NCBI RefSeq assembly: GCF_001531445.1
Contig: NZ_LQYA01000006.1
Coordinates: 1-64,000, forward strand
Reading direction: 5' to 3'
Length of the DNA stretch: 64,000 bases
From: Sporosarcina koreensis
GTDB taxonomy: Bacteria > Bacillota > Bacilli > Bacillales_A > Planococcaceae
How positions within the stretch are numbered: position 1 is the first letter of the stretch; each line of letters opens with the position of its first letter. A model generated the notes under the pieces. The model was not told the origin of the DNA. It saw only the letters and a program-made list of their open reading frames with translations, and searched no databases. Made by a program: the position numbers and the translations under genes. Below, in pieces: positions 32,210 to 56,698 of this stretch.

Positions 32210-32696
32210 GGGCCAGCCGCCTAAACAAACATGAATTTCTCGTTTGTTTAAACTTTCACGTCAACTAACACTAATCTCCACCCTAACTATGAATTAGTAA
32301 AACTCCGCCATTTATGCGATAATAATAGAACTAGCGTTTCTATTATCGAGTAAAAGAGGTGTACTCATGAAACCCGTCATCCTAGCTGAAAAACCATCTC
32401 AAGCGAAAGCGTATGCGGACGCTTTTTCTGTGCGGAGGCACGAAGGGTTCCTGGAGATCAACCCGTGTCCGATCTTTCCGGAAGGTGCCTATATCACATG
32501 GGGCGTCGGTCACTTGGTCGAGTTGAAGGAGCCGCATGCATACAACCCTGCTTGGAAACGTTGGTCGCTCGGAAGTCTGCCAATCCTACCCGACCGATAT
32601 GAGTTTCAAGTAGCGAAAGGGAAGTTCAAGCAGTTTCAGATTGTGAAGAAGCTCATTCGCGGGACGGATACGGTCATTAATGCTTGCGACGTGGAT
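32210..32696 (+). repeat. topB promoter and 5' region, copy A
   Basis: This stretch and 35075-35562 are diverged copies of the same DNA: both have an AAACAAAC.TGAATT-type start, a CGCCATTTATGCGATAATAATAGAAC / TTCCATTTATGC.ATAATAACAGAAC-type promoter region shown here only in part, and the first 110 codons of topB. Many third-base changes separate them, so they come from different lineages rather than a recent duplication. Confidence 0.8.
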
Positions 32697-33368: not shown

Positions 33369-33456
33369 CAACAGAGGACGGTTCGGAACCAGTGAAATAG
33401 TACATGTCGTTCTCGTGTCTCAGTAACCGTCTAAGATTGCTGGGGGAACTAAAAAG

Positions 33457-35232: not shown

Positions 35233-35574
35233 GTGAAGCCAGTCATCCTAGCCGAAAAACCATCCCAAGCGAAAGCGTATGCAGACGCTTTTTCCGTGCG
35301 GAAGCATGAAGGATTTCTTGAGATCAATCCATGTCCAATTTTTCCTGCCGGAGCATTCATCACATGGGGGGTCGGCCATCTCGTTGAATTGAAGGAACCG
35401 CATGCTTACAATCCCGCTTGGAAACGTTGGTCGCTCGGGAGTCTACCGATCTTGCCGGAACGGTATGAGTTCCAAGTGGCGAAGGGGAAATTCAAGCAAT
35501 TTCAAGTTGTGAAGAAACTCATTCGTGGGACAAATACGGTTATTAATGCTTGTGACGTGGACATATCTCCATAA
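35233..35574 (+). pseudogene. topB: topB 5' fragment B (DNA topoisomerase III)
   Basis: A second N-terminal piece of topoisomerase III, starting with GTG at 35233 behind AGGAGGGG (VKPVILAEKPSQAKAYADAF) and ending in NACDVD plus foreign ISP codons and a stop. It is cut at the same point of the TOPRIM DxD motif as copy A, at the core GTGGAC (35557-35562), which is the left border of the 21-kb element. Joined to the 3' part at 56693 it would restore a protein of about 716 residues in frame. It differs from copy A at about six of 110 residues and at many silent sites. Confidence 0.92.
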
Positions 35575-35660
35575 AAATCCAAGCACATAATAACTACATT
35601 TATCCTTATTAGTGCTCTTCATATATATCCGACTACAAATTCCTTTGAACAAAAATATAA

Positions 35661-35706
35661 AAACGCACATAACCAGATAAAGCATCTGTAATTATGTGCA
35701 TTTTTT
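35661..35706 (+). terminator. Conserved left-end hairpin
   Basis: AAACGCACATAA pairs with TTATGTGCATTT, with an inner AGAT/ATCT, and six T follow. It lies 98 bases inside the element, as does its counterpart at 32793-32837 in the second left end. It could stop transcripts from the truncated topB and also those of gajB from the right. Confidence 0.7.
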
Positions 35707-35744
35707 ATATTGCATTCTCGCTAGACAGTAAGTATCGTAACTAT

Positions 35745-37568
35745 TCAATCAATAAAAAGTAAATATTCTGAAGGTTGCTGCCTTTTCACATCTCCCCATG
35801 GCATCACTTTTATTAAAGGGTATGTCAAATAACACTCTCTTTTAGCACGCGTTATAGCAACAAACATATTATTTTTTTCTTCTATTTTTTGCGAATGCGT
35901 TTTAGCACGATAGTCAGGAAATGTTCCTTGTGTCAACCCGAGAACAAAGACGATTTCGTATTCTAACCCCTTAGACGTATGAACAGTTAATAACGAGACA
36001 CCCTCATTATTATCTTCTCTAAACTTCCCAAGTGATACTTGATTTCTAAAATAAGGTAAACTTCTACCTCCAGGTACTGACTGTTTACAATATTTACTCC
36101 ATCTTTCCTTCCAAAGCTCAAGATCATTTTGAATAAGAAATTGAAAGTTTTCCTCTAACTGACATAAAGATAGATAAGTCTTTTCAATTTCATTTAATGC
36201 CACCATGAAATCACTTCCATCTTTATCCAGAATATTCCAAGCGTTAATTATTGCATTCACAATTTCGTCATTCAATTCAAGGTTATTGATTTCCCTGTTA
36301 CTTAATAAGTCTTGTAAGAAATTCTCTGTTTGATTCTCTCTAGATAGATAAGAATTAACTTTACTATAGTTTAAATCGTCATGAGGATTTACCAAGACAC
36401 GCAAACCTGTTTCGAATATTTTCATCTCGATTGTTTCACACTCTAAATGAACATTAGAACCACCAAATGAATAGGAAAGCTTCTTTTTTTGAAGGCACTT
36501 TTCTAAACTATCAAAGAGGTATCTGTTTCTTCCGATGATTGCTATATCTTCAAGTTCAATTTCATTTTCAACCCAAGGACTTCCATTTTCAATTAAATAC
36601 TCAATTTGACTCGTAATCCAATTAGCTTCTTCTTCCTCGTCTGCAAATGAATGTACTTCCAATACACCTTCTAATGGATATACAGACTGAGACTTAGAAT
36701 GTGGCTGAATACGATTGGCTGCATCAATTATTTTATATGTTGATCGGAAATTTTCTTTTAGTATGAACTCTTTCGGTTCAAAATCTTTAACAAACTTCTT
36801 TGTCATAATATCACTATCTGATCCATTAAAACCATATATTGATTGGGCTGAATCACCAACCATCATAAGATTGTAAAAGTCTCTAGTTAAGGCTTGAATT
36901 ATTTTGTACTGCGTTTCATTTAAATCTTGTGCTTCGTCTATTAGAATATACCTATATAATCTGGTATAGTTCTTAGCGACTCTTGGTCGATCAACAAAGA
37001 CTTTATAAGCGTAAAATAAAATATCATCAAAGTCTATAACCCTGTTGGATATTAAAAGATTGTTGTAGCTTTCATATAGATTTATAACATCTATGTTATG
37101 CTGCTCTTTTCTTGCCAAGTCGGGTGTAATAAAATTCTGTTTGAAATTTTGTATTTGTAAATAATACTCTCTCAGTTCCCTTTCTTTAAGAGAAAGATTT
37201 AAACTATCACACGATCTTTTAAGTAATTCTAATTTGTCTTTTTCATTCTCAATTAATGCTAATCCACTAGGCAGGCCTATTTGATTCCCTTTATTTGTGA
37301 CAACATCTAAGCAAAAGCTGTGTATTGTACCGACTTCTACTCGCTCAAAATCCTCTTCCGCTATTTGTTCTTTGACTCTCTCTGATATTTCTTCTGCTGC
37401 TTTATTGCTAAACGTCAAAGCTAATACTTTTCCTTTTCGTTTCTCTATAATATTAGCTATACGTTGAGTAAGAACACGAGTCTTTCCGCTTCCTGGGCCT
37501 GCAGTAACAAGTAACGATCCATCTAAATACTCAACTATCTCTTGTTGTTTCGGTGTCAAATTCAACAT
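35745..37568 (-). CDS. gajB: GajB, UvrD-like helicase of a Gabija defence system
   Basis: A 607-residue superfamily 1 helicase: Q motif LNLTPKQQEIVEYLDG, Walker A TAGPGSGKTRVL (about 23-34), LIDEAQDLNETQYKII as Walker B, FRSTYKIIDAANRIQ, VSLLTVHTSKGLEYEIVFVL and the last motif FVAITRAKRECYLTYP. In Gabija, GajB joins the nuclease GajA and is thought to respond to nucleotide loss and processed DNA during phage attack. The ATG at 37568 has GGAGGGATTT before it and is preferred to 37580. It overlaps the end of gajA by 38 bases, so the two are translated together. It is longer than the B. cereus GajB I recall, but the pairing is diagnostic. Confidence 0.85.
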   Translation of the reverse strand: MLNLTPKQQEIVEYLDGSLLVTAGPGSGKTRVLTQRIANIIEKRKGKVLALTFSNKAAEEISERVKEQIAEEDFERVEVGTIHSFCLDVVTNKGNQIGLPSGLALIENEKDKLELLKRSCDSLNLSLKERELREYYLQIQNFKQNFITPDLARKEQHNIDVINLYESYNNLLISNRVIDFDDILFYAYKVFVDRPRVAKNYTRLYRYILIDEAQDLNETQYKIIQALTRDFYNLMMVGDSAQSIYGFNGSDSDIMTKKFVKDFEPKEFILKENFRSTYKIIDAANRIQPHSKSQSVYPLEGVLEVHSFADEEEEANWITSQIEYLIENGSPWVENEIELEDIAIIGRNRYLFDSLEKCLQKKKLSYSFGGSNVHLECETIEMKIFETGLRVLVNPHDDLNYSKVNSYLSRENQTENFLQDLLSNREINNLELNDEIVNAIINAWNILDKDGSDFMVALNEIEKTYLSLCQLEENFQFLIQNDLELWKERWSKYCKQSVPGGRSLPYFRNQVSLGKFREDNNEGVSLLTVHTSKGLEYEIVFVLGLTQGTFPDYRAKTHSQKIEEKNNMFVAITRAKRECYLTYPLIKVMPWGDVKRQQPSEYLLFID

Positions 37569-39438
37569 AAATCCCTCCATCTTTTATTTCCCCGAAGGCT
37601 GCATTTATGGGATATTTCTTTATTTTTGCTATTTTAAAGAAAAAGTTCCTAATTACTTGAGGTATCTTATCTATGTTGTCCCTTTGCAAAATTAGTTGCC
37701 CTATCTGAGAAGAATACTCCGTCTTAATACTACCAAGACATTCTATCAATGCTGTATTGAAGCCTTCCTCTCCTTCGTAATCTTTGATTTCACTTTTGAA
37801 AATATTTTGAGTACACCTAGGACATACTTCTTCTGTACGTTGGGGTTTTCCAGATTGACCATTATTTCTTTCTATGTAATCCTCAATAAAAGATTCTTTT
37901 CCTTTAACTTCATCTATTACCTTTAATAATTCATTCTTATACCCAGACTGCACTAAATACTTTTCAAAATCACCGTGATCTGGCAAGAAAGTAATATAAT
38001 CAGCTATCTTTGCATCGCTTACATCACCATACACTTGCTTATAATGTTTTTTTACATCACTTACTATCCTACTCTCTCCATCGCTAAATATAAATAATTC
38101 AATATCTAAGGCTTTGGCCACCCTCATAAATGGCTTATACTTTCCAGCTCCACCAACACCTAAAATATTTGTTCCAAGCTCAAAAGGTTCTAGTCCGTAA
38201 TATTCTTTAAAAAACTCTGGTAAAACTTGATCTTCTGTTTCTCCTTCGCAAAGAATAAGTGTATCTGCAAACAAAATATCTCCTCTTGTCTTTATAACCT
38301 CCTCCTTTATTTTTCTGACGTCAGTATCACCTAAACCTTCTAAATTAATGTAGTTTATACTTGAAGATTCTCCTTTTTTATAAATATGAACAATTTCATC
38401 TAAATTTACTTGCGCCGCAATAATAGGGGAGTGTGTGCTAATAACTTTTTGACCTGTCAGTTCTTGCATTTGTCTATAGATTTTTCTTTGGGCCTGGGGA
38501 TGAAGATGTGCCTCAGGCTCTTCAAGCAATAATAGAGGATGATAGGGTCTTCCTTCTCGCTCCATATCTATTATTTTCCATTCTATATAAGCTGAAAGTG
38601 TTAAAAATGCAGTCCAACTTCTCGTACCCATTCCCTGATTAGATATAGCAAACGATTCTGAATGACTATCACTAAATCTTACTTCCATTCCTTTATCTAA
38701 ATCTTTTATTTTTCTAGAAACCGGATTTATTTCAACCCGATTATTACTAGAGTTTACTACTTTACTAATATCGTTCAATTTATCACGTAAATGCTTTAAA
38801 ACGTCACTATTGCCTATTATCTGGTCATTTATATCATTTAGAAGTATTTCCATGTCTTTCAAATCGTCATCTGACAACTTTATATCTTTGACCAACTTTC
38901 CCCAATATGAAAAACGATCATTCATTTCAGATACAATATCCCTCTTTGCATCCAAATAAAAAACCGGAATTGCCTCTATAACTTCCCTTTTTACGGAGTG
39001 ACTATTGAAATCAGTAAAGGAAACAACATCATCAGATTCTGGCCAAGCGTTTAATGCCTTTCTATCTAATTCATATTCTCCTTTAGCTGCACTATATTTA
39101 ATTATAGTTCTCAAGGCCACAAAGTCTTTGCTTTCACCCTCCACGACAAAATCACCGAAAAATTCGTGCCAAGTATCATCGAAACTATCTCCGATTGGAG
39201 ATATCAAGACATCTAATAATATACTTTTTTCTCTACTTAAGACCTCATCTTTTTTTAAAAAGATTAATTCCTCACTAATCTTTTTATATGGTGTAAAACA
39301 TAGTTCCAGCGCCTCTAATAATGATGTTTTCCCAACATTATTTGCTCCTAGAAGTAAGGTTGAATTTTGTAATTTAACATCAGCACTTTCATAACATTTG
39401 TAATTTCTAATCCTCAATTCTTCAATAAAAACACCCAT
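37531..39438 (-). CDS. gajA: GajA, OLD-family ATPase-nuclease of Gabija
   Basis: A 635-residue OLD-family protein. Residues 1-380 form an ABC-type ATPase: LLLGANNVGKTSLLEALELC (about 28-47), NQGMGTRSWTAFLTLSAYIE as signature region, and LLLLEEPEAHLHPQAQRKIY as Walker B. A TOPRIM nuclease follows, with DTLILCEGETEDQVLPEFF (about 393), NILGVGGAGKYKPFMRVAKA and LFIFSDGE. A C-terminal stretch has a CPRC pair. GajA cuts DNA when nucleotide levels fall during infection, and works with GajB. It is encoded first, with gajB overlapping its 3' end. It reads towards the left border of the element. Confidence 0.86.
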   Translation of the reverse strand: MGVFIEELRIRNYKCYESADVKLQNSTLLLGANNVGKTSLLEALELCFTPYKKISEELIFLKKDEVLSREKSILLDVLISPIGDSFDDTWHEFFGDFVVEGESKDFVALRTIIKYSAAKGEYELDRKALNAWPESDDVVSFTDFNSHSVKREVIEAIPVFYLDAKRDIVSEMNDRFSYWGKLVKDIKLSDDDLKDMEILLNDINDQIIGNSDVLKHLRDKLNDISKVVNSSNNRVEINPVSRKIKDLDKGMEVRFSDSHSESFAISNQGMGTRSWTAFLTLSAYIEWKIIDMEREGRPYHPLLLLEEPEAHLHPQAQRKIYRQMQELTGQKVISTHSPIIAAQVNLDEIVHIYKKGESSSINYINLEGLGDTDVRKIKEEVIKTRGDILFADTLILCEGETEDQVLPEFFKEYYGLEPFELGTNILGVGGAGKYKPFMRVAKALDIELFIFSDGESRIVSDVKKHYKQVYGDVSDAKIADYITFLPDHGDFEKYLVQSGYKNELLKVIDEVKGKESFIEDYIERNNGQSGKPQRTEEVCPRCTQNIFKSEIKDYEGEEGFNTALIECLGSIKTEYSSQIGQLILQRDNIDKIPQVIRNFFFKIAKIKKYPINAAFGEIKDGGIYVEFDTETTRDS

Positions 39439-39659
39439 ATTTCTCTCTCCCTTAAATAGTAACTTGGATTAGTGCAGACATGTATAGAACCTTTTCTATA
39501 TTTTAACATAGTTCTGAAATATTTTTATTGAAGCTTCTTTAAACGTTAAATCATAGCACCTATTTAAATTTCAAGTTATGAATACTGATAACAAAAATGC
39601 TATCATAAGAACAAACACTCCTAGTTATCGAGGAAAGTCAAAAAAAAATTTATAAAGAA

Positions 39660-41822
39660 GTGAGTACAATAAGCAAAATAGCCATCCTAGCCGAAAAACC
39701 ATCCCAAGCGAAAGCCTATGCAGATGCTTTCTTAGTAAAAGCTCGTCACAAAACGCATATTGAATTAAATCCATGCAGCACGTTTCCTAATGGCGCGATC
39801 ATTACATGGGGAATTGGACATTTGGTAGAGTTAAAAGAGCCTAAAGAATACCGAAAAGAGTGGTCGTCTTGGAGTCTTTCGTCTTTACCCATCCTTCCAA
39901 ATAGGTACGAGTATAAGGTTTCCTACGGAAAGAGGGTTCAGTTCAACTTCATAAAGGATTTATTCAATGATCCTGCCGTTTCAACGATTTTGAACTGCTG
40001 CGATTGCGATCGTGAAGGATCTAATATTTTCTATTCCATCTACTACATGACAGGTGCGAGGAATAAGACAATTAAGCGCCTATGGATAAATTCATTGGAA
40101 GTTGATGAAGTCCGAAAAGGATTTAATAACCTCCAAGATAATAAAAAAGACTTATTGCTTTATTATGAAGCTAAAACACGACAAGTTAGCGACTGGCTTG
40201 TTGGAATGAACGGAAGTCGACTATACACCCTTCTGTTACAGCAAAAAGGATTCAATGAAAGTCTTTCGATTGGACGAGTACAATCTCCAACGGTATATCT
40301 CATTTACCAACGGCAAAAAGAAATAGAAAGCTTTGTTTCTACGCCATTCTATGAAATCGAGGGAAATTTCACTGCTGAAAATGGAACATATAAAGGAAAG
40401 GCCAAGATTAAGAGCGATAAAAAAGAAGAAGGCCTACAAATTTTGCAACAGCATAACATCTTGGAGCAAAATGAGGGATTTGTAAAATTCGCAACAAAGA
40501 AAGAGAAGCGTGCCAAATCTCCAAAATTACATGCCCTATCAACGCTACAAGCTGCCGCAAATAAGAAATGGAGATATAGCCCTGCAAATGTACTAAAGCT
40601 TGTACAGGGGCTCTACGAGAAGAAACTTGTCACCTATCCACGAACTGATACACAATTCATTACCGACAATGAGTTTGCTTATCTCGTAGATAACGTGGAA
40701 CGCTATCAACAAATTGCGGGTATCTCGTTCCCAATCGCTTCAAAACGACCAAACAAACGGTATGTAGACAGTTCCAAGGTCCAAGAGCACTACGCAATCG
40801 TTCCGACAAAAAGCATACCAACCGAAAGGAAGCTACAAGGATTATCCATTGAAGAACGTAACCTATATTTTGAAATTCTAAAAACAACATTGGCCATGTT
40901 TCATTCAGATTATATCTATGAAGAAACAAAAGTCATCACCGATGTGAATAGACTAGAATTTGAAACTACTGGGAATACGGAGATAAGCAAGGGATGGAAA
41001 GAACTCTTCACAGACATAAAACAGGAAACTGTTGATAGAAAAAAAGAGGCTATGCAAGCAATCCCATTGCTTTCAAAGGGTGAAAAGGTATTAGGTGTCG
41101 TAAAAATGACTGAAGGTATGACAACGCCTCCTAAACCATACACGGAAGGTCAATTAATCGGGATGATGAAGACTTGTGGTAAAACTGTTGAAAATGAAGA
41201 GGAAATGGAGATTTTAAAAGAAGTTGAGGGTCTTGGTACTGAAGCAACCCGGAGTGGAATTATCGAAACGATTAAAAGACATGGATATATCACAGTGAAT
41301 AAGAATATTGTTAGTGTCACTCCTAAAGGTGTGATTCTTTGTCAATCCATAGAAGGTAATCTTCTTTCTAGTCCATCCATGACGGCAAAATGGGAAGCAT
41401 ACTTAAAGAAAATCGGTAATGGGGAAGGTTCACCAGAACATTTTATAGCTACGGTTACAAGATTCATCAACAAATTAATTCAAGAAGTCCCTCTTCAATT
41501 ACAAGTCCAAGCTTTAGAACAAAATATCACAGCTATCCAGAAAGTCAGCGTCATTGCACCTTGCCCCACTTGTAAGAAAGGTAATATTGTTCAAAGAAAA
41601 ACGTACTACAGATGCTCCGAACATGAAAACGGCTGCAAACAAACCTTTCCAGGGCAAATGTTAGGAAAGAAACTCTCAGAAAAGGATATCAAGGATTTAT
41701 GTACTAAAGGACGAACGCGTGTGATTAAAGGTATGAAATCAAAAGCAGGGAAGAAGTTTAGTGCAGCATTAAAGTTCGAAAATCAAAACATCACATTCGA
41801 ATTTGCGAGCAATAAAAAATAA
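39660..41822 (+). CDS. topB: Complete DNA topoisomerase III carried by the element
   Basis: A 720-residue type IA topoisomerase that relaxes or decatenates DNA through a 5' phosphotyrosine. TOPRIM spans residues 5-140, with the intact acidic motif CCDCDREGSNIFYS. The catalytic tyrosine lies in KLVTYPRTDTQF (about 330). A C-terminal zinc-finger-like part has CPTCKKGNIVQRKTYYRCSE and GCKQTFPGQM. It is about 65-70 percent like the host pieces by eye and AT-richer. Where the host gene reads GACGTGGATCG, this copy reads GATTGCGATCG, so the element's target core is absent. Start is GTG at 39660 with only a weak ribosome site. It probably supplies the activity lost by the insertion. Confidence 0.92.
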   Translation: MSTISKIAILAEKPSQAKAYADAFLVKARHKTHIELNPCSTFPNGAIITWGIGHLVELKEPKEYRKEWSSWSLSSLPILPNRYEYKVSYGKRVQFNFIKDLFNDPAVSTILNCCDCDREGSNIFYSIYYMTGARNKTIKRLWINSLEVDEVRKGFNNLQDNKKDLLLYYEAKTRQVSDWLVGMNGSRLYTLLLQQKGFNESLSIGRVQSPTVYLIYQRQKEIESFVSTPFYEIEGNFTAENGTYKGKAKIKSDKKEEGLQILQQHNILEQNEGFVKFATKKEKRAKSPKLHALSTLQAAANKKWRYSPANVLKLVQGLYEKKLVTYPRTDTQFITDNEFAYLVDNVERYQQIAGISFPIASKRPNKRYVDSSKVQEHYAIVPTKSIPTERKLQGLSIEERNLYFEILKTTLAMFHSDYIYEETKVITDVNRLEFETTGNTEISKGWKELFTDIKQETVDRKKEAMQAIPLLSKGEKVLGVVKMTEGMTTPPKPYTEGQLIGMMKTCGKTVENEEEMEILKEVEGLGTEATRSGIIETIKRHGYITVNKNIVSVTPKGVILCQSIEGNLLSSPSMTAKWEAYLKKIGNGEGSPEHFIATVTRFINKLIQEVPLQLQVQALEQNITAIQKVSVIAPCPTCKKGNIVQRKTYYRCSEHENGCKQTFPGQMLGKKLSEKDIKDLCTKGRTRVIKGMKSKAGKKFSAALKFENQNITFEFASNKK

Positions 41823-41909
41823 CAGTGGGATAAAACTATTGTAATAAGTTTTATTCTAGGTCGCAACAAAATATTACAGACGAAGCACCTATCCTCGTTC
41901 GTTGACTGT

Positions 41910-41957
41910 AAAAGGACTACTCCGTGAATTAAAATGATTCATGGAGTAGTCCTTTTT
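41910..41957 (+). terminator. Terminator after element topB
   Basis: AAAAGGACTACTCC pairs with GGAGTAGTCCTTTTT, inner part TGAAT/ATTCA, strong stem with T run. It also works for the gene reading from the right. Confidence 0.85.
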
Positions 41958-41998
41958 GATCACCAAACTGATAGTAGGGGCAACGCCCCTACTGCTTT

Positions 41999-42460
41999 TT
42001 ATTGTTCATCGAAGGCGTAACCGACACCGCCCAATCTGTCCTGAAGCTCACCTTCATCAGAAGCCATAATTCCTGCGATTAACTCGTCATGTTCTTCTTC
42101 TGTTATATTTTCGTCCGAATTATCATGCCAAAATCCGGCAAGCCATTCTTTCATTTCATTGATTGTTTCAAATGAGAAATCTGTTTCATCCAGTGTGTCG
42201 TAGCGTTTGTAAAGTTTTTCTCCGGTTGCTGTGGTCATCTGAAGTCCCCCATTCAAATTGATTGCATATGAATTTATATTGTTTTTTGCTGCAAGTGCTT
42301 TTACTTCATTCATTAATTCTTCATGAGTGATTGAAAGGAATTCGATTTGGTTAATGAAGGTGGTATCAACTAATTCATTTCCGTTTTTCAGCATTAAGCA
42401 GGCTGTTTCTTTTACAAGTGTAATTTCATGAAAATCGGTAGTTGTTTGGGTTGTAGTCAA
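41999..42460 (-). CDS. Uncharacterised acidic protein
   Basis: A 153-residue protein with a TTG start at 42460 preceded by AAAGGAGGAG, which is why the longer frame from 42562 is rejected. It starts MTTTQTTTDFHEITLVKETA and ends GGVGYAFDEQ. The last 60 residues are acidic (TDFSFETINEMKEWLAGFWH, DSDENITEEEHDE-like). No signal, membrane segment or known motif is seen. It reads out of the hairpin-rich region upstream, which could hold its promoter or leader. Confidence 0.6.
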   Translation of the reverse strand: MTTTQTTTDFHEITLVKETACLMLKNGNELVDTTFINQIEFLSITHEELMNEVKALAAKNNINSYAINLNGGLQMTTATGEKLYKRYDTLDETDFSFETINEMKEWLAGFWHDNSDENITEEEHDELIAGIMASDEGELQDRLGGVGYAFDEQ

Positions 42461-42550
42461 TTGAATCTCCTCCTTTTGGTTTCGAGCGAAACGAATCTGT
42501 CTCCGAAGGGGATGATTTTCTCCGTTTCTATGAGCAGTTCGAACAATATG

Positions 42551-42978
42551 AATTAGCAGCACGTCAAGGGTTTCAGCCGGAAAAGTTTTTCATTGAAGCG
42601 TTTTTTGCTGAAAGGTTTGAAAAAGTTTTTCGCCCCTTGACGTACTGCTCGTTGACTTTGCCCTAAACAGGAAAGGGTTCGGGTCCCTACATGTTTAGGG
42701 CTTAGTCAACTTATGAAAGATTGTACGATTCGCGAGAGAAAGGGGGAAAATCACTAAATAAAAAAACAGGCCGCATTTGGCCTGTTATCTTCTTTTCATT
42801 CTTTTGTGGTCTTCGTCTCGTGCAGTACGGCCCTTGGGCAAACGGATCAGGAACTTACGGGTGTAGGAGCTTGCTCCGTACAGTCCGTATGTTATCGAGC
42901 CGTTTAGTGCTGTCAGCGACACGTTACAGACCGTTAGAAGGCGTTCTGTGCCTTTTTACGGTCTGTCGTGCTGACGCC
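42551..42978. other. Array of long hairpins, non-coding
   Basis: Four large inverted repeats follow each other. (1) 42553-42650: GCAG.ACGTCAAGGG outer arms and TTTCAGC/GCTGAAA inner arms. (2) 42651-42710: GTTGACT..GCCCTAAACA with TGTTTAGGGC..AGTCAAC. (3) 42840-42905: AAACGG/CCGTTT, ACGG/CCGT and GGAGC/GCTCC nested. (4) 42912-42975: GTCAG, CACG and ACAGACCGT arms with ACGGTCTGT, CGTG and CTGAC. A small terminator-like stem (AACAGGCC/GGCCTGTT) lies at 42764-42786. The last two are GC-rich against an AT-rich surround. Possible roles are a replication or transfer origin, or a structured RNA; none is shown. Confidence 0.7.
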
Positions 42979-43065
42979 CGTAAAGCAATATTAGTTGTTC
43001 AATAAAAAAAGAAGCTCTTAAAAGAACTTCTCAATTGATCTTATATCGTTTAAATTTAAAAATTA

Positions 43066-43263
43066 CTATCGAAAATAATGAGCTAAAACAGGAAGCAATA
43101 ATATGATAAGAAGACTTTGGATAAAAGATAAAGTTATATCTTTCTTCCATGTGTTTCCTTCGAGTTTCGAATTGGCTATTCTTTGGAACGCAAGAAGAAT
43201 GATCCACCATATTAATAGAGAAAAAATAGCTGAACTAATACTACTATAATAGTCGTGATACAA
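43066..43263 (-). CDS. Small membrane protein
   Basis: A 65-residue protein with two hydrophobic helices (about 8-28 and 44-62) and a charged loop ANSKLEGNTWKKD. The start is TTG, preceded by GGAGGTG at nine bases. No family is recognised. It lies in the element between the hairpin array and the exported proteins. Confidence 0.55.
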   Translation of the reverse strand: MYHDYYSSISSAIFSLLIWWIILLAFQRIANSKLEGNTWKKDITLSFIQSLLIILLLPVLAHYFR

Positions 43264-43473
43264 GTTACTGCACCTCCATTTTTCGTTCTTTTAAAACATA
43301 CAAAAACATAGATGGTTAGAAAATTTGACAAACCCTATCTTTAATAAGGCTATATAAGCATACAAAATTTTTAAAAAATTAACAAGAAAAGTAGAGAAGG
43401 GAATTTTTAAAATTACTCCCCACTCTACCATTTGGATCTGTATAGCTTACATCATTGGGATTTGAAAATCATT

Positions 43474-44049
43474 TCACTTCATACTACTTGCAATTTTCAC
43501 CATTTCTTCAGCACCAAGGCTTTTATCGTCAGCGAGTGTATTAATTTTTTGATCTTTTGTATTATGAGTTGAAGATGTTAAGGAGTAAGATAGACCATCA
43601 TCTTTCCAAAATAAAATTTCAACAGCTCCATTTGTGTAATACTGTGCATCTTTACCATTCAATTTCACAGCTATTAATCCTTCTCCATTCGCCCCATCTC
43701 CCATAGGAACAATGTCGGCATCAGTAACTTGGAGTTCTAATAAGTTGCCTGATGATTTGTTCATATAAAACTTATGAAAAACTTGTTCATTTTTAACTAA
43801 ACTTGTAATTTGCTCACTTGTAATTTCATTTTTAAAGGGAAGTGAAGTTTTATCTATGTCTTTTATTTTATTTTTAAAATCAACTTTACTTAATGATTCA
43901 CCTTCTGCTGTAATTCCTTGGGAAATTACATTTAGACTTTGAGTTTCACTGGAAGCTTGTGCTTTATCGTTCATTACTAACGTAGCTACAAATCCGCTTA
44001 CTCCACCAAAAAATGCAGTTGCAAAACAAATTAATATTATTTTTCTCAT
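43474..44049 (-). CDS. Uncharacterised exported or membrane-anchored protein
   Basis: A 191-residue protein with an N-terminal hydrophobic segment (MRKIILICFATAFFGGVSGF, ending near residue 26) that is a signal peptide or anchor. The rest is soluble, with an acidic and polar pattern (VTDADIVPMGDGANGEGLIA, AQYYTNGAVEILFWKDDGLS). It has no cysteine after the signal. It lies 30 bases after the cysteine-containing secreted protein gene on the same strand, so the two may act together outside the cell. Its function is unknown. Confidence 0.6.
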   Translation of the reverse strand: MRKIILICFATAFFGGVSGFVATLVMNDKAQASSETQSLNVISQGITAEGESLSKVDFKNKIKDIDKTSLPFKNEITSEQITSLVKNEQVFHKFYMNKSSGNLLELQVTDADIVPMGDGANGEGLIAVKLNGKDAQYYTNGAVEILFWKDDGLSYSLTSSTHNTKDQKINTLADDKSLGAEEMVKIASSMK

Positions 44050-44079
44050 ATTATTTTTCCACTCCGTTTCACTCCATTT

Positions 44080-44598
44080 TTATTTAAGGTCATATTGAAT
44101 TCCAATTGTGTAATCTTGGCATAGAAACCCTGCAGAACTTGCACAATCTAATGCATTTCCACTTCGGAATTTTTGTAGTGTGACAGGTCTTTCATAACCA
44201 GAAGGATAATAACCTAATTGTCTTGCTACACTTATTGAATGCGGTGAGACGTCTTGTAAAATTTTACCATTACGAGCGGAATATGTGTAATATTTAGCGT
44301 TTTTATTGTCATAAACTATAAAGTCTTGAAGCATAGGTGCACCTTTTTTCATTGTGCCGGAAATAGTATTATATGAAAGATGTAAGTTATAAGGATCAAC
44401 TTTCCTTACTGAGTCTGAATGTGTAATATCAAAAGTTGTATAATGGTCACTTGCACTACCATTCGCATTGCAGAATGTCGCAAGGCTACTCGAAACATTA
44501 CAAAATCCATAAAAATTGTTTGCAAGAGCATGATTACTGATTAGTATAAACGAAACAATAAATGAACCAGTGAAAACCAATAACTTTAAGTATTTCAT
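44080..44598 (-). CDS. Uncharacterised secreted cysteine-containing protein
   Basis: A 172-residue protein with a signal peptide (MKYLKLLVFTGSFIVSFILI, cut near ALAN, about residue 26). The mature part has four cysteines: two near the start (FCNVSSSLATFCNAN) and two near the end (LDCASSAGFLCQDY), which could form disulfides. A polar middle reads YYTYSARNGKILQDVSPHSI. The start at 44598 follows GAGGGGATA and is preferred to 44628. It is the first gene of a pair with 43474-44049. No family is recognised; a small secreted effector or matrix protein is possible but not shown. Confidence 0.6.
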   Translation of the reverse strand: MKYLKLLVFTGSFIVSFILISNHALANNFYGFCNVSSSLATFCNANGSASDHYTTFDITHSDSVRKVDPYNLHLSYNTISGTMKKGAPMLQDFIVYDNKNAKYYTYSARNGKILQDVSPHSISVARQLGYYPSGYERPVTLQKFRSGNALDCASSAGFLCQDYTIGIQYDLK

Positions 44599-44628
44599 TT
44601 TTTTATCCCCTCTCCGATTTCTGTACAA

Positions 44629-45064
44629 TTTTGTTTACCGTTAAAACATTGCGGTTACCATTGCCCTCCTTCCTTTATCGTATTGAATATACGATACATT
44701 ACCATATCCGAATTGTAAATGAATTCCATGTACTTAGAACGAACAGAATTGTTGGGAAAATTTAACCAGAAACAAGCCTATTTTCACATGTTTTAAACAA
44801 TCCATGTCGTTAAAGTCTTGATATATCAACATTCTATGTTGGGAAAATTACTCGCAAAGTAATGAAATGTAGTTCCCTCTTGGTAAAAATGCGATGTTTG
44901 ACCATAAAAATAGAAGCCCAAAATTGAGCTTCAATTGATTACTTTATCACTGTGAATTTTGTTTACAGGCTCCGCAAAAATACTTTCTCTTACGTAATCT
45001 TTCACCGCTTATCAACCTCTGTAATTAGTATTTCCATAGCAAAAAGAAGAGTACAGGGCCCTGA
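44629..45064. other. Gene-free stretch with a small hairpin
   Basis: About 430 AT-rich bases with the promoter region of the secreted protein gene on the minus strand and a GAAGC/GCTTC hairpin at about 44910-44930 that could stop the gene from the right. No frame with a credible start is seen. Confidence 0.5.
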
Positions 45065-45706
45065 TCACATGAATTTCCACTTGTTAAGTAAATCTTGAAT
45101 CGAATCAGTCACGGTACTTGTCGTGTCCTTTATATTTTCAAGGAAATTTGAAAGGAAAACAAACCAGGAATAATGTTCCTCGGACGAGTTATTGGTATTC
45201 ACATAACGTAATAGTTTCTTCAATTCAGACATTCGGCTATCATTCAATTCTTTTGAAAGGTAGGTACGAACAAAAATATTAGCAATATCCGTCTGTTTAA
45301 TGGTTGTATCTAACAAGATTGCAGCAGCTCTTGTCGGTGTAACGTTAAGTGCATAGGCGAGTGTACAAATATTTTCATGTGTTGCTAGGGAAACACGTGT
45401 ATGTACACGATCTGTAGCTTTGTCCGAATCCCTCTTTAAAACGGCTGGCCGATCCGGTCCACCTATAAAAAGCGAGTTATTCAATCGGACCGTCCTCTGA
45501 AAATGCACATTCAAATAAGAAAGGACTTTCCTTGAAACTACTCCATGATCGCAAATGTATTCCATAACATGCTGCATTGGTGTATCTGTAACAAAGGAAA
45601 GCCTTGCAATACAATCTTTTAATTCAATGGATACTGTTGGTTTAACATCAATTTTCTTATCACTTCTCACTTTTCTTTCTGCCAACACACCTGTCTTCCC
45701 CACCAC
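45065..45706 (-). CDS. Uncharacterised protein, possible DNA-binding
   Basis: A 213-residue protein. The N-terminal third is basic and helical (RKVRSDKKIDVKPTVSIELK). A middle section RVHTRVSLATHENICTLAYA with LNVTPTRAAAILLDTTIKQT has the look of a ribbon-helix-helix or HTH fold. The C-terminal third is helical and less charged. Similar proteins are, to my memory, seen on Bacillus plasmids, but I cannot name the family. GGGGGATTG precedes the start. It could be a regulator or a replication/partition accessory of the element. Confidence 0.55.
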   Translation of the reverse strand: MVGKTGVLAERKVRSDKKIDVKPTVSIELKDCIARLSFVTDTPMQHVMEYICDHGVVSRKVLSYLNVHFQRTVRLNNSLFIGGPDRPAVLKRDSDKATDRVHTRVSLATHENICTLAYALNVTPTRAAAILLDTTIKQTDIANIFVRTYLSKELNDSRMSELKKLLRYVNTNNSSEEHYSWFVFLSNFLENIKDTTSTVTDSIQDLLNKWKFM

Positions 45707-45863
45707 AATCCCCCCATTTGTTTAAATCAACTCCATGTACTGTGTACCTGTGTACAGGACTTAAATGATGTATATGTCAATGGGGAAGTAGTGATGTATA
45801 GAATATTTCAATTCTGTGAATGATAGAGAAAATGTGATTAAAAGATTGCAAGGAAGTGAAAAA

Positions 45864-45959
45864 ATGAAGAAAGATGTAGCTGAAAAGATGGCCCAACAAA
45901 TGAAGAAGAATGCCGAAAAATACAACATTCCATTGAAAAAGAAGAAAAAGAAGAATTGA
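45864..45959 (+). CDS. 31-residue lysine-rich small protein
   Basis: MKKDVAEKMAQQMKKNAEKY continues to a tail of seven lysines and asparagine, then TGA. AAGGAAG stands eight bases before the ATG and a terminator follows 30 bases after the stop, so the unit has a promoter-gene-terminator layout. It is too short to assign; it might be an amphipathic or nucleic-acid-binding peptide. Confidence 0.5.
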   Translation: MKKDVAEKMAQQMKKNAEKYNIPLKKKKKKN

Positions 45960-45989
45960 AATTTTGATTAGCACTTATGCTGAAAAAGA

Positions 45990-46022
45990 AAAGGACAGAG
46001 CTATTATGCCCTGTCCTCTTTT
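45990..46022. terminator. Bidirectional terminator
   Basis: AGGACAG and CTGTCCT form a stem with a 13-base loop, A run before and T run after. It can serve the small gene on the left and the pseudogene on the right. Confidence 0.75.
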
Positions 46023-46026
46023 AACT

Positions 46027-46424
46027 TTAGAACTTTTGGTGGAACTGTAGAATGTCATATATTCCTCCCACAATATCAATTAGGTAGAAACCTTGTGATT
46101 CAACAGTCGGATTATTTGCCGGGTGATAGCCCTTGAATTCAAAAGTGTATTGCCCTTTTGGTATGCGTTCAAAATCCGATCGCCATAGAATAGCTTCCCA
46201 CTCATATTCATATGTGCTTGTTCTGATCAATCTAAACTCTGAACTTGGAATTTGTACTGTTCCTACTTGACCACTGAAATTTACCCTCTACCCTATTTGC
46301 CGGGGAAGTTTTCAATCGAATGACAAACTGCTCTCCTGCAAGGAACATGTTTACGTCAGGATCGTGCCCTTCAGATATCCAGTAGTTTTTCCATTCATCA
46401 ACATGAGAAATAACCTTCCTCTTA
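46027..46424 (-). pseudogene. Remnant of an unknown protein, frameshifted
   Basis: The left frame (46027-46280) encodes QVGTVQIPSSEFRLIRTSTY and ends GGIYDILQFHQKF. To its right the same protein appears in another frame: HVDEWKNYWISEGHDPDVNM, then AGEQFVIRLKTSPANRVE, joining near 46285. No start is found. The beta-rich pattern with spaced aromatic residues suggests part of an extracellular or surface domain. The parent family is not recognised. Confidence 0.6.
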
Positions 46425-46462
46425 GTCTATTGGAAGGTTTTGTTTTATTTGGTTATCGCTTC

Positions 46463-46579
46463 TTATGCGTTATCTACAAAAGTAGAATTGGTTCTTAACA
46501 GGGCATAAATCCAATGTAAAAGCTTATTTGCACAGGCAATGACAGCTACATTATATGGATTCAATGATATTTTTAGCAT
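46463..46579 (-). pseudogene. IS110-family transposase C-terminal remnant
   Basis: MLKISLNPYNVAVIACANKL continues with LHWIYALLRTNSTFVDNA and a stop. The NPY..AVIACANKLLHWIYALL pattern is the usual C-terminus of IS110 transposases. Only 38 codons remain and no ends are visible. Confidence 0.7.
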
Positions 46580-46656
46580 CTGGTAAATTAGAAATAATGA
46601 AAAATGCTGTTGGTTCTATTGACCAATAGCATTTCCACTATTTATCTACTTAGTTG

Positions 46657-48174
46657 TTAACATAAATTCGACTTGGACGGGTTGGGATACACAGAGTAGT
46701 TTTGCATGACTGTGACGAACCTTTCTTGCATCTCTTTATTGAAAGCTTGTAAATCCTCCACACAATCCTTCACTTCCCCCGTAAATGCTCCCGAAAACAT
46801 TGTGGCATCGTAATGAAACCACGCTTCTTGATTAGCTTTACGTTGTTGTAGATGTGCTAAAATATCCACGTTATTTAATAACGCTTCTTCATAATTATAC
46901 AGGCCCATAAAGTGAATATTTGAACAGATATATTTATATTCTTCACTTTCAAGATCAATACTTAGTTCTTTCGCTACTCTAGGCAAAACTTGTTCACGAC
47001 TTACGTGACTGTCCTCAATAGTCAGAACAATTCCATATACATTTTCTTGTTTAATCTGAACATCTTTACCGAACGGAAAGTAATCGTGTTGGAAACGATT
47101 TTTCACATGATCATATGATTGTAAGACCATTTCTACGGTGCGCTTCACAGTATGCTCTATATCCTTTATTTTAAAGTTACGGATACTTAATCGTGGAGAC
47201 ATGCTTTTACTTTCAATCAGTATTGCACTATCGCCTTGTAGAATCATAACATCCGCAGTTGCTTCTTTCTTTTTCCCTAGCCTATAATCAAACTCTCCTA
47301 CTACTTCATGGAAATGTTTCGATTGCTTTGAAATATGGTAAATATAGTCCTCAACCACTTCTTTTCCACACATATTCCGTAATTCATTACTCTGGCCTTC
47401 AGTAAAGCGGAAATACATAGAGGTTGTGGTACTTTCTGTTACTAAGTGAGGTAACATAATATAGGCTTGTCCATCGTGATGAATAAAGGGATATTGATAG
47501 AAAAACTTAAAACCATATACATATTGCTCTATATCATTGGTAAATTTCCGTTGAACCGATTTAAAAGCTTCTCGACTAATTGTCAGCAACTCAGTTACAT
47601 GTTGATATTTCCTTAAAAGGAAAGTAAATTGGTCTTTGTTCATCTTGTCGATACTTATGAGATAAATCATAAACGCATACACGAAACCAAATGTCTTCAC
47701 GTCTTCGTATGACACTCCAAACTTTTCTTGAAAAAGGCTAGGCATATCAAGTTTTTCGCTTTGATAGTGAAAAAAGTAATTGTAACGATAGAATTTAATC
47801 AAATGGTTTCGTTGTATCGGAAACTGGTTTAACGCCATCCCCATCATTCGTATATCACTATCATGTTCATGAGGCACTTCGCTTTTAAAGAGTGTGGCAG
47901 TCGGAACATCATTTTTACGAATGGCAGAAATTATATTCTCGTAAATTGCTTTCCCTTGTTCTCCCTCAAGCACTTGATTTCCTTCATCCTCAGCTAGTAT
48001 ACAAAATAATGCAAATGTTTCAAGTTCTGTCGGAAGAAGAAACGACTCGTTATGAACATCTTTCAAGCTTATTTGATAAGGATGTACAAAACGACTAGAA
48101 ACCTTATTACATATCCCAGCTCTCGAATGAAAACTATAAGACTTTAGTATATTTAAAATTTCTCGAATTTCCAC
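46657..48174 (-). CDS. Putative PD-(D/E)XK nuclease, candidate defence protein
   Basis: A 505-residue protein. Residues 304-323 read EATADVMILQGDSAILIESK, a fair PD-(D/E)XK core with Asp308, Glu321 and Lys323, preceded by Glu294 in VVGEFDYRLG. The first 280 residues are helical and of unknown type, and the C-terminal third is mixed. No methyltransferase or helicase domain is present. It lies 66 bases after an HNH nuclease gene, which follows an XRE regulator, all on one strand. A nuclease operon with its own regulator inside a defence-carrying element suggests phage restriction. That is inference; the fold call rests on the motif only. Confidence 0.65.
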   Translation of the reverse strand: MEIREILNILKSYSFHSRAGICNKVSSRFVHPYQISLKDVHNESFLLPTELETFALFCILAEDEGNQVLEGEQGKAIYENIISAIRKNDVPTATLFKSEVPHEHDSDIRMMGMALNQFPIQRNHLIKFYRYNYFFHYQSEKLDMPSLFQEKFGVSYEDVKTFGFVYAFMIYLISIDKMNKDQFTFLLRKYQHVTELLTISREAFKSVQRKFTNDIEQYVYGFKFFYQYPFIHHDGQAYIMLPHLVTESTTTSMYFRFTEGQSNELRNMCGKEVVEDYIYHISKQSKHFHEVVGEFDYRLGKKKEATADVMILQGDSAILIESKSMSPRLSIRNFKIKDIEHTVKRTVEMVLQSYDHVKNRFQHDYFPFGKDVQIKQENVYGIVLTIEDSHVSREQVLPRVAKELSIDLESEEYKYICSNIHFMGLYNYEEALLNNVDILAHLQQRKANQEAWFHYDATMFSGAFTGEVKDCVEDLQAFNKEMQERFVTVMQNYSVYPNPSKSNLC

Positions 48175-48240
48175 TTGTATAACTGCTCCTTCCTTATTGA
48201 ATGGTAATAGGCCCTATAGTTTCATGAAAAGAATAAATTC

Positions 48241-49047
48241 TTACAGATTCCAAAACGGTGCATTTACGGAGCTAGTGGAAATAATTTTTGCCCCCTTTGA
48301 AGTATTACAGGACTCGCACAATAACTGAAAATTGGATGCATCATTACTTCCAAACATGTTCAACGGGATAATATGATCAATATGCTTAGTATTTTGAACC
48401 CTAATTAAATGAGATAAATCACACCTACATTGAGAACAAGTACCTTTATCTCTATAGAATACCGCTAATTTTAACCACTCAGGAAAATACTGACGTTTAA
48501 CCCTTTTCTTTTGTGATATATAGTCCGGATATTTCCTCTCTATTTCGCCCATATGTTCCTCGATAAACCTGGCTAATTCAAGATGAAAATCAAACAAAAA
48601 CTTTCTGTTTTGAAAAATAAATTGAAATGCTGCATGTATAATTAACTTGTTTATTTCTTCTTGATTATCAATGATGAATCCTTTCCATTTTTCTATAGCT
48701 TTATTACATTCGCAATCATTGTGCCCATAGGCGCTGCTGCAATTTTCAAAATCCGGCTCACCAAGTTCCGGATGGATATTTAACTCATCAAGTGTTCTAA
48801 TGATAAAGTTGTATATCCATTCAGCATCGAAAGCATCACACAACTTATGTAATTCATCTTCAATGTCTTGATAGAAATATAAATAATAGTGAATAGCGGT
48901 CATTCTAGTAGGCTTAACAATACATCCGATTATTTCCTCTTTGAAGACCCAAAAAGCCTCATAAGAACAATCTTCAAAATTTGAAACAGCAATTCCTGCT
49001 AAACCAATGCCAGAACTTAATGCAAGATGCTCATCTTTTGAAGCCAT
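48241..49047 (-). CDS. HNH endonuclease
   Basis: A 268-residue protein. Its C-terminal part (about residues 200-260) is an HNH nuclease: DKGTCSQCRCDLSH, HIDHIIPLNMFGSNDASNFQ and LLCESCNTSKGAK give the two zinc CxxC pairs and the catalytic His-Asp-His set. The first 190 residues are helical with a separate CECN cysteine group (about 115) and no known family. The ATG at 49047 is chosen over the GTG at 49059, though the choice is uncertain. It is between an XRE regulator gene (30 bases upstream) and a PD-(D/E)XK gene. Confidence 0.8.
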   Translation of the reverse strand: MASKDEHLALSSGIGLAGIAVSNFEDCSYEAFWVFKEEIIGCIVKPTRMTAIHYYLYFYQDIEDELHKLCDAFDAEWIYNFIIRTLDELNIHPELGEPDFENCSSAYGHNDCECNKAIEKWKGFIIDNQEEINKLIIHAAFQFIFQNRKFLFDFHLELARFIEEHMGEIERKYPDYISQKKRVKRQYFPEWLKLAVFYRDKGTCSQCRCDLSHLIRVQNTKHIDHIIPLNMFGSNDASNFQLLCESCNTSKGAKIISTSSVNAPFWNL

Positions 49048-49076
49048 TGCCCCAACCACCCTTGCTATTATTAGAC

Positions 49077-49334
49077 TTATAAATGTAATAAGTTTTCTGT
49101 TTCAATTACCAAATCACCCGGACTTTCATTTAGCCCCTTTGCCAACGCAAATATTGTATTTATTGTCGGCTTTCTTTTTCCTCTCTCCATAAGGCTTATA
49201 TAAGTTCGATCCAATCCACAAAGATGAGCAAGCTCTTCCTGTGATATTGACTTTTCCACCCTAATTTTCCTCAGTACTTTTCCAAAGGCTTCTTCTATTT
49301 CCACGAGACACTCCACCACACTCTTTTTCTTCAT
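49077..49334 (-). CDS. XRE family regulator, R-M controller-like
   Basis: An 85-residue single-domain Cro/C1 HTH protein: FGKVLRKIRVEKSISQEELA, HLCGLDRTYISLMERGKRKP and TINTIFALAKGLNESPGDLV. The DRTYISLMERGKRKPTI pattern is typical of the controller (C) proteins of restriction-modification operons, which time expression of the nuclease. Here it heads an operon with two nuclease genes but no methyltransferase. It probably represses or times the operon. Confidence 0.85.
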   Translation of the reverse strand: MKKKSVVECLVEIEEAFGKVLRKIRVEKSISQEELAHLCGLDRTYISLMERGKRKPTINTIFALAKGLNESPGDLVIETENLLHL

Positions 49335-49426
49335 ACTCGAAGAAATGTGGTATTCAGTCCACGGACTATAGTCTGCAAGAAAGGCCTAGATGTGCTACAA
49401 TATCAATAATATCAAGTAGCCCATAT

Positions 49427-49969
49427 TTGAAGAAAGGGATGAAGAAGTTGGATGAAGTGATTTCTTTAATTTTGGAATCAAAACTACCTGATCAATTAAA
49501 GGAATATCTTAAGAGCAGCTCACGGATCAAAGAAATAATTAGCATAGAAACAATTTTGGAAATCGAGGACTTGTACATTTTTTATGATTCCTTGTACATC
49601 TTTGACACATCCGAATTTAGTGCTTACACAATTACCTCATTACAAAAATGCAAAGACTTGGATGCATTTTATTATTATCTGAAAAAAGTGATTGATACAA
49701 ATCTAGAACTTGAAACCAAAGACAATAAAAGAAAAGATCAAGTATCAAACAAGAAGTCTATACCATTTAAATTCGAGAATTCTATTAAGGAATTCTGTTT
49801 ATTAGTCGATAAAGTGTATAAAAACGACAAAGATATTGACCTAAATGCTACTTACAAAAGCCTGGGGAAAATGGAATTGATTTATGATCTATTTAAAAAT
49901 CCATATCATAAAAAGATACTTGATAGTGGCAAGAATGTTCTCGAGAAGTATACAAAGCCAAACGAATAG
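49427..49969 (+). CDS. Uncharacterised protein
   Basis: A protein of about 176-180 residues, soluble and helical, rich in Lys, Asp and Glu: KKLDEVISLILESKLPDQLK, then IETILEIEDLYIFYDSLYIF and GKMELIYDLFKNPYHKKILD. No cysteine cluster, signal or motif. The start is uncertain: TTG at 49427 has no ribosome site and the ATG at 49439 is close to AAAGGG. It is divergent from the XRE-nuclease operon and could belong to the same function, for example as a sensor or inhibitor, which is speculation. Confidence 0.5.
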   Translation: MKKGMKKLDEVISLILESKLPDQLKEYLKSSSRIKEIISIETILEIEDLYIFYDSLYIFDTSEFSAYTITSLQKCKDLDAFYYYLKKVIDTNLELETKDNKRKDQVSNKKSIPFKFENSIKEFCLLVDKVYKNDKDIDLNATYKSLGKMELIYDLFKNPYHKKILDSGKNVLEKYTKPNE

Positions 49970-50034
49970 CAGCAATTAGAGTTATTCGTTTGGCAAAAGA
50001 ATCGTCCCTATAAAATTATCGAAATAATCTGTAA

Positions 50035-50745
50035 CTATAAGTCGAATCGATTCAACAATCTTTCCATATTTTTGTTTTTCTTCTCACTCTTACTTTCTTT
50101 CGATTCTACATTAACTGGGTTGTCCGGAAAGTAAACAGATAAGTCATCCAGATCGGCATTTTTCATCTTATATTTTTCCATATCAATCAGTTTCTCAGTA
50201 ATATTTAATTGTCCTATTTGCGAGTCTTGTATGCCTTGCAAATGCGGATATACACTTGATACGACAATGTTATTGTAGAGCTGCTCATAGTGTTCAGCAC
50301 GCTTTCTTTGTTTCTCTACTTCATCCTTCAACGACTGGATTTCAGCTAGTCCACTTTTAAATCGTTCTTCTTTCTCTTTGTAATCCTGAAGTTCTTTATA
50401 CAAGTCATATAGCAAGATCTCTAAATCAAGCAATTCATTTTTCAAAGCACGCTTGTCATTATCATATTTCTTGAAAATCAGATCAATACTCGGCAACAAT
50501 GTTTCATTCTTTCCATCTAGCGATATGTCCGAAATGATGGGAGCGTTCAACTCTTCAATATACGTCTTCATTCGACGACTCCAAGTGTTGCGTCCCACCT
50601 TAGTTTCCTTTTCAAGAAGGGAAGGGGTTAGCTTTTTTCCATGCAGCTTATATTTAGTATCTAACGCCAATTGTTTCAATTCTTCGTCTGTCCACTCTTT
50701 TGGTCTTCCACGGCTGTGGCTTTCATTGCTCTGTGTCAAACGCAT
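50035..50745 (-). CDS. TnpC-like accessory protein (DUF6262 type)
   Basis: A 236-residue protein: an N-terminal HTH part (RGRPKEWTDEELKQLALDTK, TPSLLEKETKVGRNTWSRRM, about residues 12-65) followed by a long coiled coil (about 95-165) and a basic tail ending in SEKKNKNMERLLNRFDL. In Tn554-like elements a small helical TnpC accompanies the recombinases and affects orientation or efficiency. It starts inside the 3' end of the third recombinase gene (23-base overlap), as in those operons. The exact family label is from memory. Confidence 0.65.
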   Translation of the reverse strand: MRLTQSNESHSRGRPKEWTDEELKQLALDTKYKLHGKKLTPSLLEKETKVGRNTWSRRMKTYIEELNAPIISDISLDGKNETLLPSIDLIFKKYDNDKRALKNELLDLEILLYDLYKELQDYKEKEERFKSGLAEIQSLKDEVEKQRKRAEHYEQLYNNIVVSSVYPHLQGIQDSQIGQLNITEKLIDMEKYKMKNADLDDLSVYFPDNPVNVESKESKSEKKNKNMERLLNRFDL

Positions 50746-52372: not shown

Positions 52373-52382
52373 CTCTGTTCTG

Positions 52383-56493: not shown

Positions 56494-56650
56494 TCCTCCT
56501 CGCTATTTATGTACATTATTAAGTGATTCCTAATATAGAAGATCTGTATTTGTTCTAACATACCAAGTATTTACTTTAAGTGCAATATCAGTTATTGTGA
56601 AATTAAGATATATCCTTGTTATTAAAGGACTATAAAGCTTAATTAGATAA

Positions 56651-56698
56651 ACTTTATGTACAAAATTATTATGTGCAATGTTATAGAGATAAGTGGAT
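56651..56698. mobile_element. Right end of the element and core
   Basis: Read inwards from the core GTGGAT (56693-56698), the end is TTATCTCTATAACATTGCAC, then ATAATAA and TGTACATAAAG. It mirrors both left ends, TTATCTTCATAAAATC (32697) and ATATCTCCATAAAAATCC (35563), and shares the CACATAATAA block. Confidence 0.75.

Follow-up and report, generated by a model that had tools for sequence, protein, structure and literature searches.

An integrative element inserted in a topoisomerase III gene of Sporosarcina koreensis carries an intact topB that may compensate for the gene it breaks

A 64,000-nucleotide stretch of Sporosarcina koreensis DNA (hereafter the window; genome G000), located on contig C425 (draft genome, 4.34 Mb), contains an inserted element that splits a host topB gene and carries a topB of its own, which raises the question of why an element should bring along the gene that it breaks. 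The original prediction was that the element replaces the activity it destroys and that its copy, having lost the sequence of the target core, cannot be attacked by the element's own recombinases. The features on which the argument draws are listed below.

32367..32696, + strand: second, displaced topB 5′ piece, ending in the core GTGGAT
32697..~35200, no strand: segment A, left part of a different element, now a fossil; contains a MocR/PdxR-type gene (33457-34926)
35233..35562, + strand: host topB 5′ piece adjoining element B
35557..35562, + strand: tnpA-distal 6-bp core GTGGAC (footprint)
35563..56692, no strand: inserted element B, 21,130 bp, G+C 0.351
35745..37580, − strand: GajB (Gabija defence), PADLOC E=6.1e-219
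37531..39438, − strand: GajA (Gabija defence), PADLOC E=1.2e-214
39660..41822, + strand: element-borne topB, 720 aa, GTG start, Asp-Cys-Asp at the TOPRIM motif
40002..40010, + strand: Asp-Cys-Asp codons GATTGCGAT in the element topB, homologous to the host target core
50035..50745, − strand: 236-aa protein in the Srap/TnpC position
50723..52372, − strand: tyrosine recombinase 2, IntB/TnpB-like, 549 aa
52724..55267, − strand: 847-aa protein in a Tfp-like position, HTH_17 domains repeated, C-terminus resembling a recombinase
55264..56493, − strand: tyrosine recombinase 1, TnpA/IntA-like, 409 aa
56693..56698, + strand: tnpA-proximal 6-bp core GTGGAT, followed by host-gene CGTGAAGGG
56693..58504, + strand: host TopB2 3′ piece, 603-aa frame

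The broken host gene is a second topB paralogue (TopB2), cut at the Asp-Val-Asp codons of its TOPRIM motif. Element B has a G+C content of 0.351, compared with 0.483 for the host topB 3′ piece, and 10 of the first 12 bases agree between its terminal inverted repeats. Its recombination module consists of four co-oriented genes adjoining the 3′ junction (409, 847, 549 and 236 aa); R216, H343, R346 and Y378 of tyrosine recombinase 1 are invariant across 12 aligned proteins, and a box-II His was not seen in the recombinase-like C-terminus of the 847-aa protein. GajA and GajB lie adjacent to each other beside topB and together constitute a Gabija system. No relaxase, secretion or conjugation family was found by Pfam in the 14 element ORFs of at least 150 aa, which do not identify element B as an integrative and conjugative element, and a tblastn search of phage records with the recombinase gave no match at E <= 1e-10. 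The Tn554 family possesses a three-gene tnpABC module without an extra HTH-rich gene, and the target of Tn554 itself is radC, whereas element B has four genes and is inserted in topB. A closer likeness is to the SEs (strand-biased circularizing integrative elements), which carry intA-tfp-intB-srap at one end and are described mainly in a subset of Gammaproteobacteria (PMC10214605). Judged by architecture and gene order only, element B is laid out alike: its recombination genes, four in number and all on one strand, are grouped at one end and include an ordinary and a large tyrosine recombinase. As in SEs, there is a 6-bp core with an intA-distal footprint unlike the target core, a feature seen in the window and more clearly in G129, G065 and G242; in the SE model the intA-proximal core is the target's own sequence (PMC10214605). 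The hosts differ, however, being gammaproteobacterial there and Bacilli here, and a carried copy of the target gene is not mentioned for SEs in the accessible part of that paper (PMC10214605).

The predicted intact 720-residue topoisomerase III gene inside the element was confirmed. The frame at 39660-41822 has no internal stops, matches the NCBIfam topB model (TIGR01056) with 563.2 bits against a cut-off of 515.75, and aligns with PDB entries of E. coli-type topoisomerase III at E ~6e-73, with AEKPS, DxDREG and YPR(T/S)D in register. Toprim and Topoisom_bac domains and the catalytic AEKP, DxDREG and YPR motifs thus lie in a single intact frame, the shared domains and motifs of bacterial topoisomerase III (TopB) being here element-borne. 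The change of spelling at the target codons is equally real: the host topB reads GAC followed by GTGGAT or GTGGAC (Asp-Val-Asp), and the element copy reads GATTGCGAT (Asp-Cys-Asp) at 40002-40010, with CGTGAAGG directly 3′ of it and the same flank in the host. The element topB is not a copy of the host's canonical topB, since on a phylogenetic tree it groups with TopB2 proteins of the genus, apart from canonical TopB, with which it shares 31% identity. The canonical TopB-like frame of the host (727 aa, contig C47) is intact, so the host is not without topoisomerase III. A search of 68 genomes of the genus at E <= 1e-150 found TopB2 in 67, a few times as partial frames only, and gave no match in G056; given this genome and the retention of canonical TopB, TopB2 may be dispensable to the host. 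The original prediction was to fall if the host had another intact topB and the element copy were inactive; the former is the case, but the element copy does not look inactive.

Relatives of element B were collected with a recombinase profile made from an alignment of 12 loci, which had been found via the window's recombinase or beside topB. At E <= 1e-40 the profile identified 26 loci, spread over 21 of the family's 261 genomes; the order-level search covered the same 261 genomes, and the class-level search matched 4 of 398 genomes at E <= 1e-100, the window's own included, and gave four new loci. The resulting 32 loci also take in L066 (Oceanobacillus alkalisoli) and one Paenibacillus lautus plasmid, these named hosts being Bacilli, and leave out a match on a Campylobacter plasmid. 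At 12 loci topB is cut next to the module, 17 lie away from topB, and three (G023, G050 and G052), at which the recombinase lies beside topB without a clear split, were excluded from both groups. In G050, G052 and G023 (L067, L083 and L063) a subfamily of the recombinase is encoded immediately upstream of topB; G023 was first noticed via a topB search, and its topB lacks the 5′ part.

Six of the 12 splits lie at the DxD/DxG motif (G000, G065, G129, L066, G607 and G242), three at YPRT (G202, G248 and G244), two in the GRVQ motif region (G009 and G236) and one elsewhere in topB (G002). An intact extra topB is present in the retrieved DNA at 8 of these 12 loci. Both pieces of the broken gene are on one contig at five loci (G000, G065, G129, G202 and G002), and all five have the intact topB between the two. 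In G248 and G244-C71, where the 5′ piece alone is visible, the intact topB is found on the stretch from that piece to tnpA. In G009-C24 just the 3′ piece is visible; an intact topB lies ~10 kb off on the recombinase side and, as the 5′ piece was not seen, is presumed to belong to the element. The split is not visible on a single contig at seven of the 12 loci, the two pieces of G242 being on different contigs. The remaining four loci expose ~11 kb (L066), 6 kb (G607), 3 kb (G236-C26) and 3 kb plus 1.4 kb on a different contig (G242) of element DNA, and a third contig of G242 holds a topB that is 89% identical to the copy in the G248 element. At the 17 loci away from topB, 9 to 60 kb of DNA was retrieved, and none of it matched topB at E <= 1e-10; neither target nor replacement was identified at most of these loci. 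The contrast between 8 of 12 and 0 of 17 gives p = 1.2e-4 in a Fisher test whose rows are related, not independent. The expectation that each such element carries topB is borne out by eight splitting loci, including all five with both pieces on one contig, and by none of the four that show 3-11 kb of element only.

The eight carried copies separate into four TopB clades, on a tree in which some deep joins are possibly false. Those of G000 and G065 group with TopB2, that of G129 is canonical and sits beside its own target, those of G202, G248 and G244 form a YPRS clade, and those of G009 and G002 form a distant clade. All eight are full length (715-737 aa) and possess the DxD/DxG and YPR motifs. 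The window's copy and the G065 copy, its closest element-borne relative, differ by a dN of 0.123 and a dS of 2.00 (saturated), and for the copies of G248 and G244 the values are 0.067 and 0.51. Carried copies exhibit 27-62% identity with the gene that is broken, the exception being G129 (83-87%). Topoisom_bac matches in G129 number three (one with a topA-like score on another contig, the split gene and the element copy), and the carried copy is the only intact topoisomerase III found in that genome.

Target genes other than topB are also split. In G057 a Y-family polymerase gene is broken and an intact one, 38-41% identical, is carried, and on the P. lautus plasmid a DNA polymerase IV gene is broken and the carried copy is 82-87% identical. 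In G203 and at two G573 loci the C-terminal part of the broken gene has seemingly been replaced by an element-borne part (61-76% identical). The insertions in G103 and G224 lie in a comGA-like ATPase gene of the T2SSE family, and no second copy was found within the 40 kb retrieved for each, so replacement of the broken target gene is frequent, not universal. G227, which has a DNA ligase 5′ piece, was not accepted as a further case of replacement: a 322-aa ligase 70 kb away is only ~26% identical, and its tie to the element is unproven. In L084 (10721-12736) a comGA-like 5′ piece is fused in frame with the recombinase gene (671-aa frame). Beside the element end in G203 (L055, 15680-19875) lie four identical copies of a 171-aa gene at 649-bp spacing and one diverged copy, as if they were pieces left by repeated insertions, and G573 holds closely similar elements on C1 (3.1 Mb, L111) and C2 (128 kb, L113), possibly owing to recent movement between replicons.

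The topB locus is an insertion hotspot with a long history. Segment A has counterparts of 94-97% identity in G055, G013 and G010, each located upstream of an intact topB, and the left-end pattern occurs beside a topB 5′ piece in 9 of the 68 genus genomes. Across the 261 genomes this pattern gave 43 hits, against 23 for the reversed pattern, which indicates that chance hits occur. Hits were kept only where a topB 5′ piece precedes the pattern: of the 43, 19 were inspected and 14 accepted (two each in G000, G016 and G065 and one each in G025, G034, G038, G044, G053, G055, G129 and G242), and the hits in G048, G142 and G143 and both in G124 were not. An intact host-type topB follows the left end in six fossils (G016, G025, G034, G038, G053 and G055), so the gene has also been restored by other means, and remnants of a window-type element topB persist in G016, G025 and G044. 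A divergent N-terminal part is present in 7 of 28 TopB2 proteins, with the best break after residue 100-102 and the core at 109-110; support for the break point spans 100 to 109 in three of the seven and is wider in four, and in three comparison proteins the break falls elsewhere, the likelihood ratios being 8 to 12 compared with 12 to 25. In G124 (L163), a left-end pattern follows a decayed frame ending in ISACDVD, which has no tblastn match to TopB.

The reading that we favour, with a probability of roughly 0.7 on the basis of target-matched carriage, four clades and mostly silent change, is that the element topB compensates for the broken one. Element B, with its four-gene tyrosine-recombinase module, is a site-specific integrative element that inserts at the conserved Asp-x-x-x-Glu-Gly codons of topB-type genes and so breaks the gene, as the sequence shows; the intact topB that it carries most likely restores the topoisomerase activity thus lost and makes insertion less costly. 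The predicted replacement of the destroyed activity is thereby supported, by the 8 of 12 against 0 of 17 loci, the four clades and dN << dS, but not proven. Elements that split a polymerase gene carry a polymerase and not topB, and in G129 the sole intact topoisomerase III found is the carried one, both in agreement with compensation, whereas the canonical TopB kept in the host, the possible dispensability of TopB2, the comGA-like insertions without a spare, the intact topB in six fossils, the 27-62% identity of most carried copies to the broken gene and the saturated dS of 2.0 speak against it. The copy could instead serve the element's own replication or transfer, a role that topB may have in conjugative elements, where its carriage is common, with the match to the target being secondary. 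The conjugative element Tn7100 bears topB (PMC9355037). Such a role is improbable, however, given that the 17 loci away from topB belong to the same recombinase family and hold no topB, that a polymerase is carried where a polymerase gene is split, and that the 14 ORFs include no relaxase or secretion family. A still smaller chance attaches to the carried topB being neutral, a passenger picked up when an element excised imprecisely from a previous topB site. Accidental capture would be easy, since these elements are often found at topB sites, and the divergent N-terminal parts of TopB2, with breaks close to the core, are in keeping with it, but dN << dS in both pairs tested, full-length frames in all eight copies and a span of four clades are not.

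A further rival is that the carried copy was selected to lose the target core, so that the element's own recombinases cannot break it, a proposal to which the used targets and footprints lend very little credence. Several differences at the target sites do favour it: Asp-Cys-Asp occurs in all four copies or remnants of the lineage that cover the site (G000 and G065; remnants G016 and G044), YPRS occurs in all three carried copies of the group whose target is YPRT, and in G129 an Arg codon is AGA in the carried copy and CGT in the target. At the DxD/DxG motif, the target consists of an Asp codon, 6 bp and a flank coding x-Glu-Gly, and of the six insertions there only the window (GTGGAT) and G065 (GTGGAC) have GTGGAY at the tnpA-proximal junction; the other four used GCAGGG (G129 and G607), GCTGGA (L066) and GCCGGT (G242). 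The target genes of G129, L066 and G607 are canonical topB. The two cores of a single insertion also differ, the distal/proximal pairs being GTGGAC/GTGGAT in the window, GTACAC/GTGGAC in G065, GTGGAT/GCAGGG in G129 and TGTGCT/GCCGGT in G242; the distal footprint GTGGAT suggests that the G129 element came from a TopB2-type gene. The next eight bases vary among used targets (CGTGAAGG in the window, G129 and L066, CGAGAAGG in G065, CGCGAGGG in G607 and ATGGAAGG in G242), and CGTGAAGG is retained unchanged in the element copies of G000 and G065. GTGGAY cores are present at 7 of the 14 accepted left ends preceded by a topB 5′ piece, and Cys-codon footprints at two: TGTGCT in G242 and TGCGAC (Asp-Cys-Asp) in G055, where the footprint belongs to a fossil whose topB 5′ piece is decayed. 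Among uninterrupted TopB2 genes of hosts, 23 of 31 have GTGGAY and the other 8 have another Val codon and so likewise lack it. Loss of the GTGGAT core is thus real, yet, given the variation of core and flank among used targets, it is no argument for immunity, and the predicted self-immunity was rejected on this junction and footprint evidence. Variation in the 6-bp core appears to be tolerated by the recombinases, so Asp-Cys-Asp most likely reflects the lineage and is not a mark of immunity.

Two described elements approach the present case. Tn552-II, which is related to Tn554, carries a gene, 'tgl', homologous to the gene that it breaks, for which a possible rescue role was proposed by its authors in 2025 (PMC12486829), and the cores at its two ends also differ ('att-brought-in'). 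It differs from the elements described here, according to the accessible part of that report, in its three-gene tnpABC, 7-bp core, yolD-like target and beta-lactamase cargo and in that its tgl retains a copy of att; here, topB and a polymerase gene are involved and several target sites are used. Tn7470 is a 5.4-kb recombinase-bearing resistance element in the topB of the integrative and conjugative element Tn7100, inserted in a relatively conserved part of the gene with 6-bp repeats (PMC9355037). Its target topB is plasmid- or ICE-borne, however, and a topB of its own is not reported in the accessible part of the paper (PMC9355037). No element that both splits and carries topB was found in the literature searched, which consisted largely of openly accessible papers and their accessible parts. 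The idea of rescue is thus not new, and the present elements stand out by a topB spare that recurs and matches the target.

A wider rule, to which we would give even odds, is that this recombinase family integrates into a DNA-processing gene of importance (topB or Y-family polymerase), at its most conserved codons, and carries a working paralogue of the same gene, the topB paralogue having been acquired at least four times. Insertion in a valuable gene would thereby become tolerable, and the locus would long serve as a hotspot for defence cargo. The usual view of integrative elements is that they limit harm by choosing tRNA genes or the ends of genes as targets, or by rebuilding the gene end, whereas the elements here insert at catalytic codons well within a widespread gene and apparently bring a spare, as a result of which the most conserved sequence on offer can serve as the target. 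If the rule holds, the identity of a carried housekeeping gene would predict the insertion site and the topB locus would be a place to search for defence cargo; whether the spare raises the survival rate of insertions is a question that can be tested.

Further observations concern the window itself. Positions 32367-35562 comprise tandem topB 5′ pieces with an element left end after each; such tandem pieces are also found in G065, where one of the two is nearest to another clade of the genus, whereas identity profiles gave no assignment for the two pieces of the window. Candidate origins are a nested insertion into the element's own topB followed by deletion, a one-ended insertion, or recombination between sister copies. 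An HNH endonuclease gene adjoins the frame at 46657-48174, which encodes a 505-aa protein with a weak match, far under the cut-off, to anti-phage GapS1. Gabija pairs lie in or beside topB insertions or fossils in three genomes (window 35745-39438, L047 8439-12250 and L108 6059-9872), and the best GajA and GajB models differ among the three.
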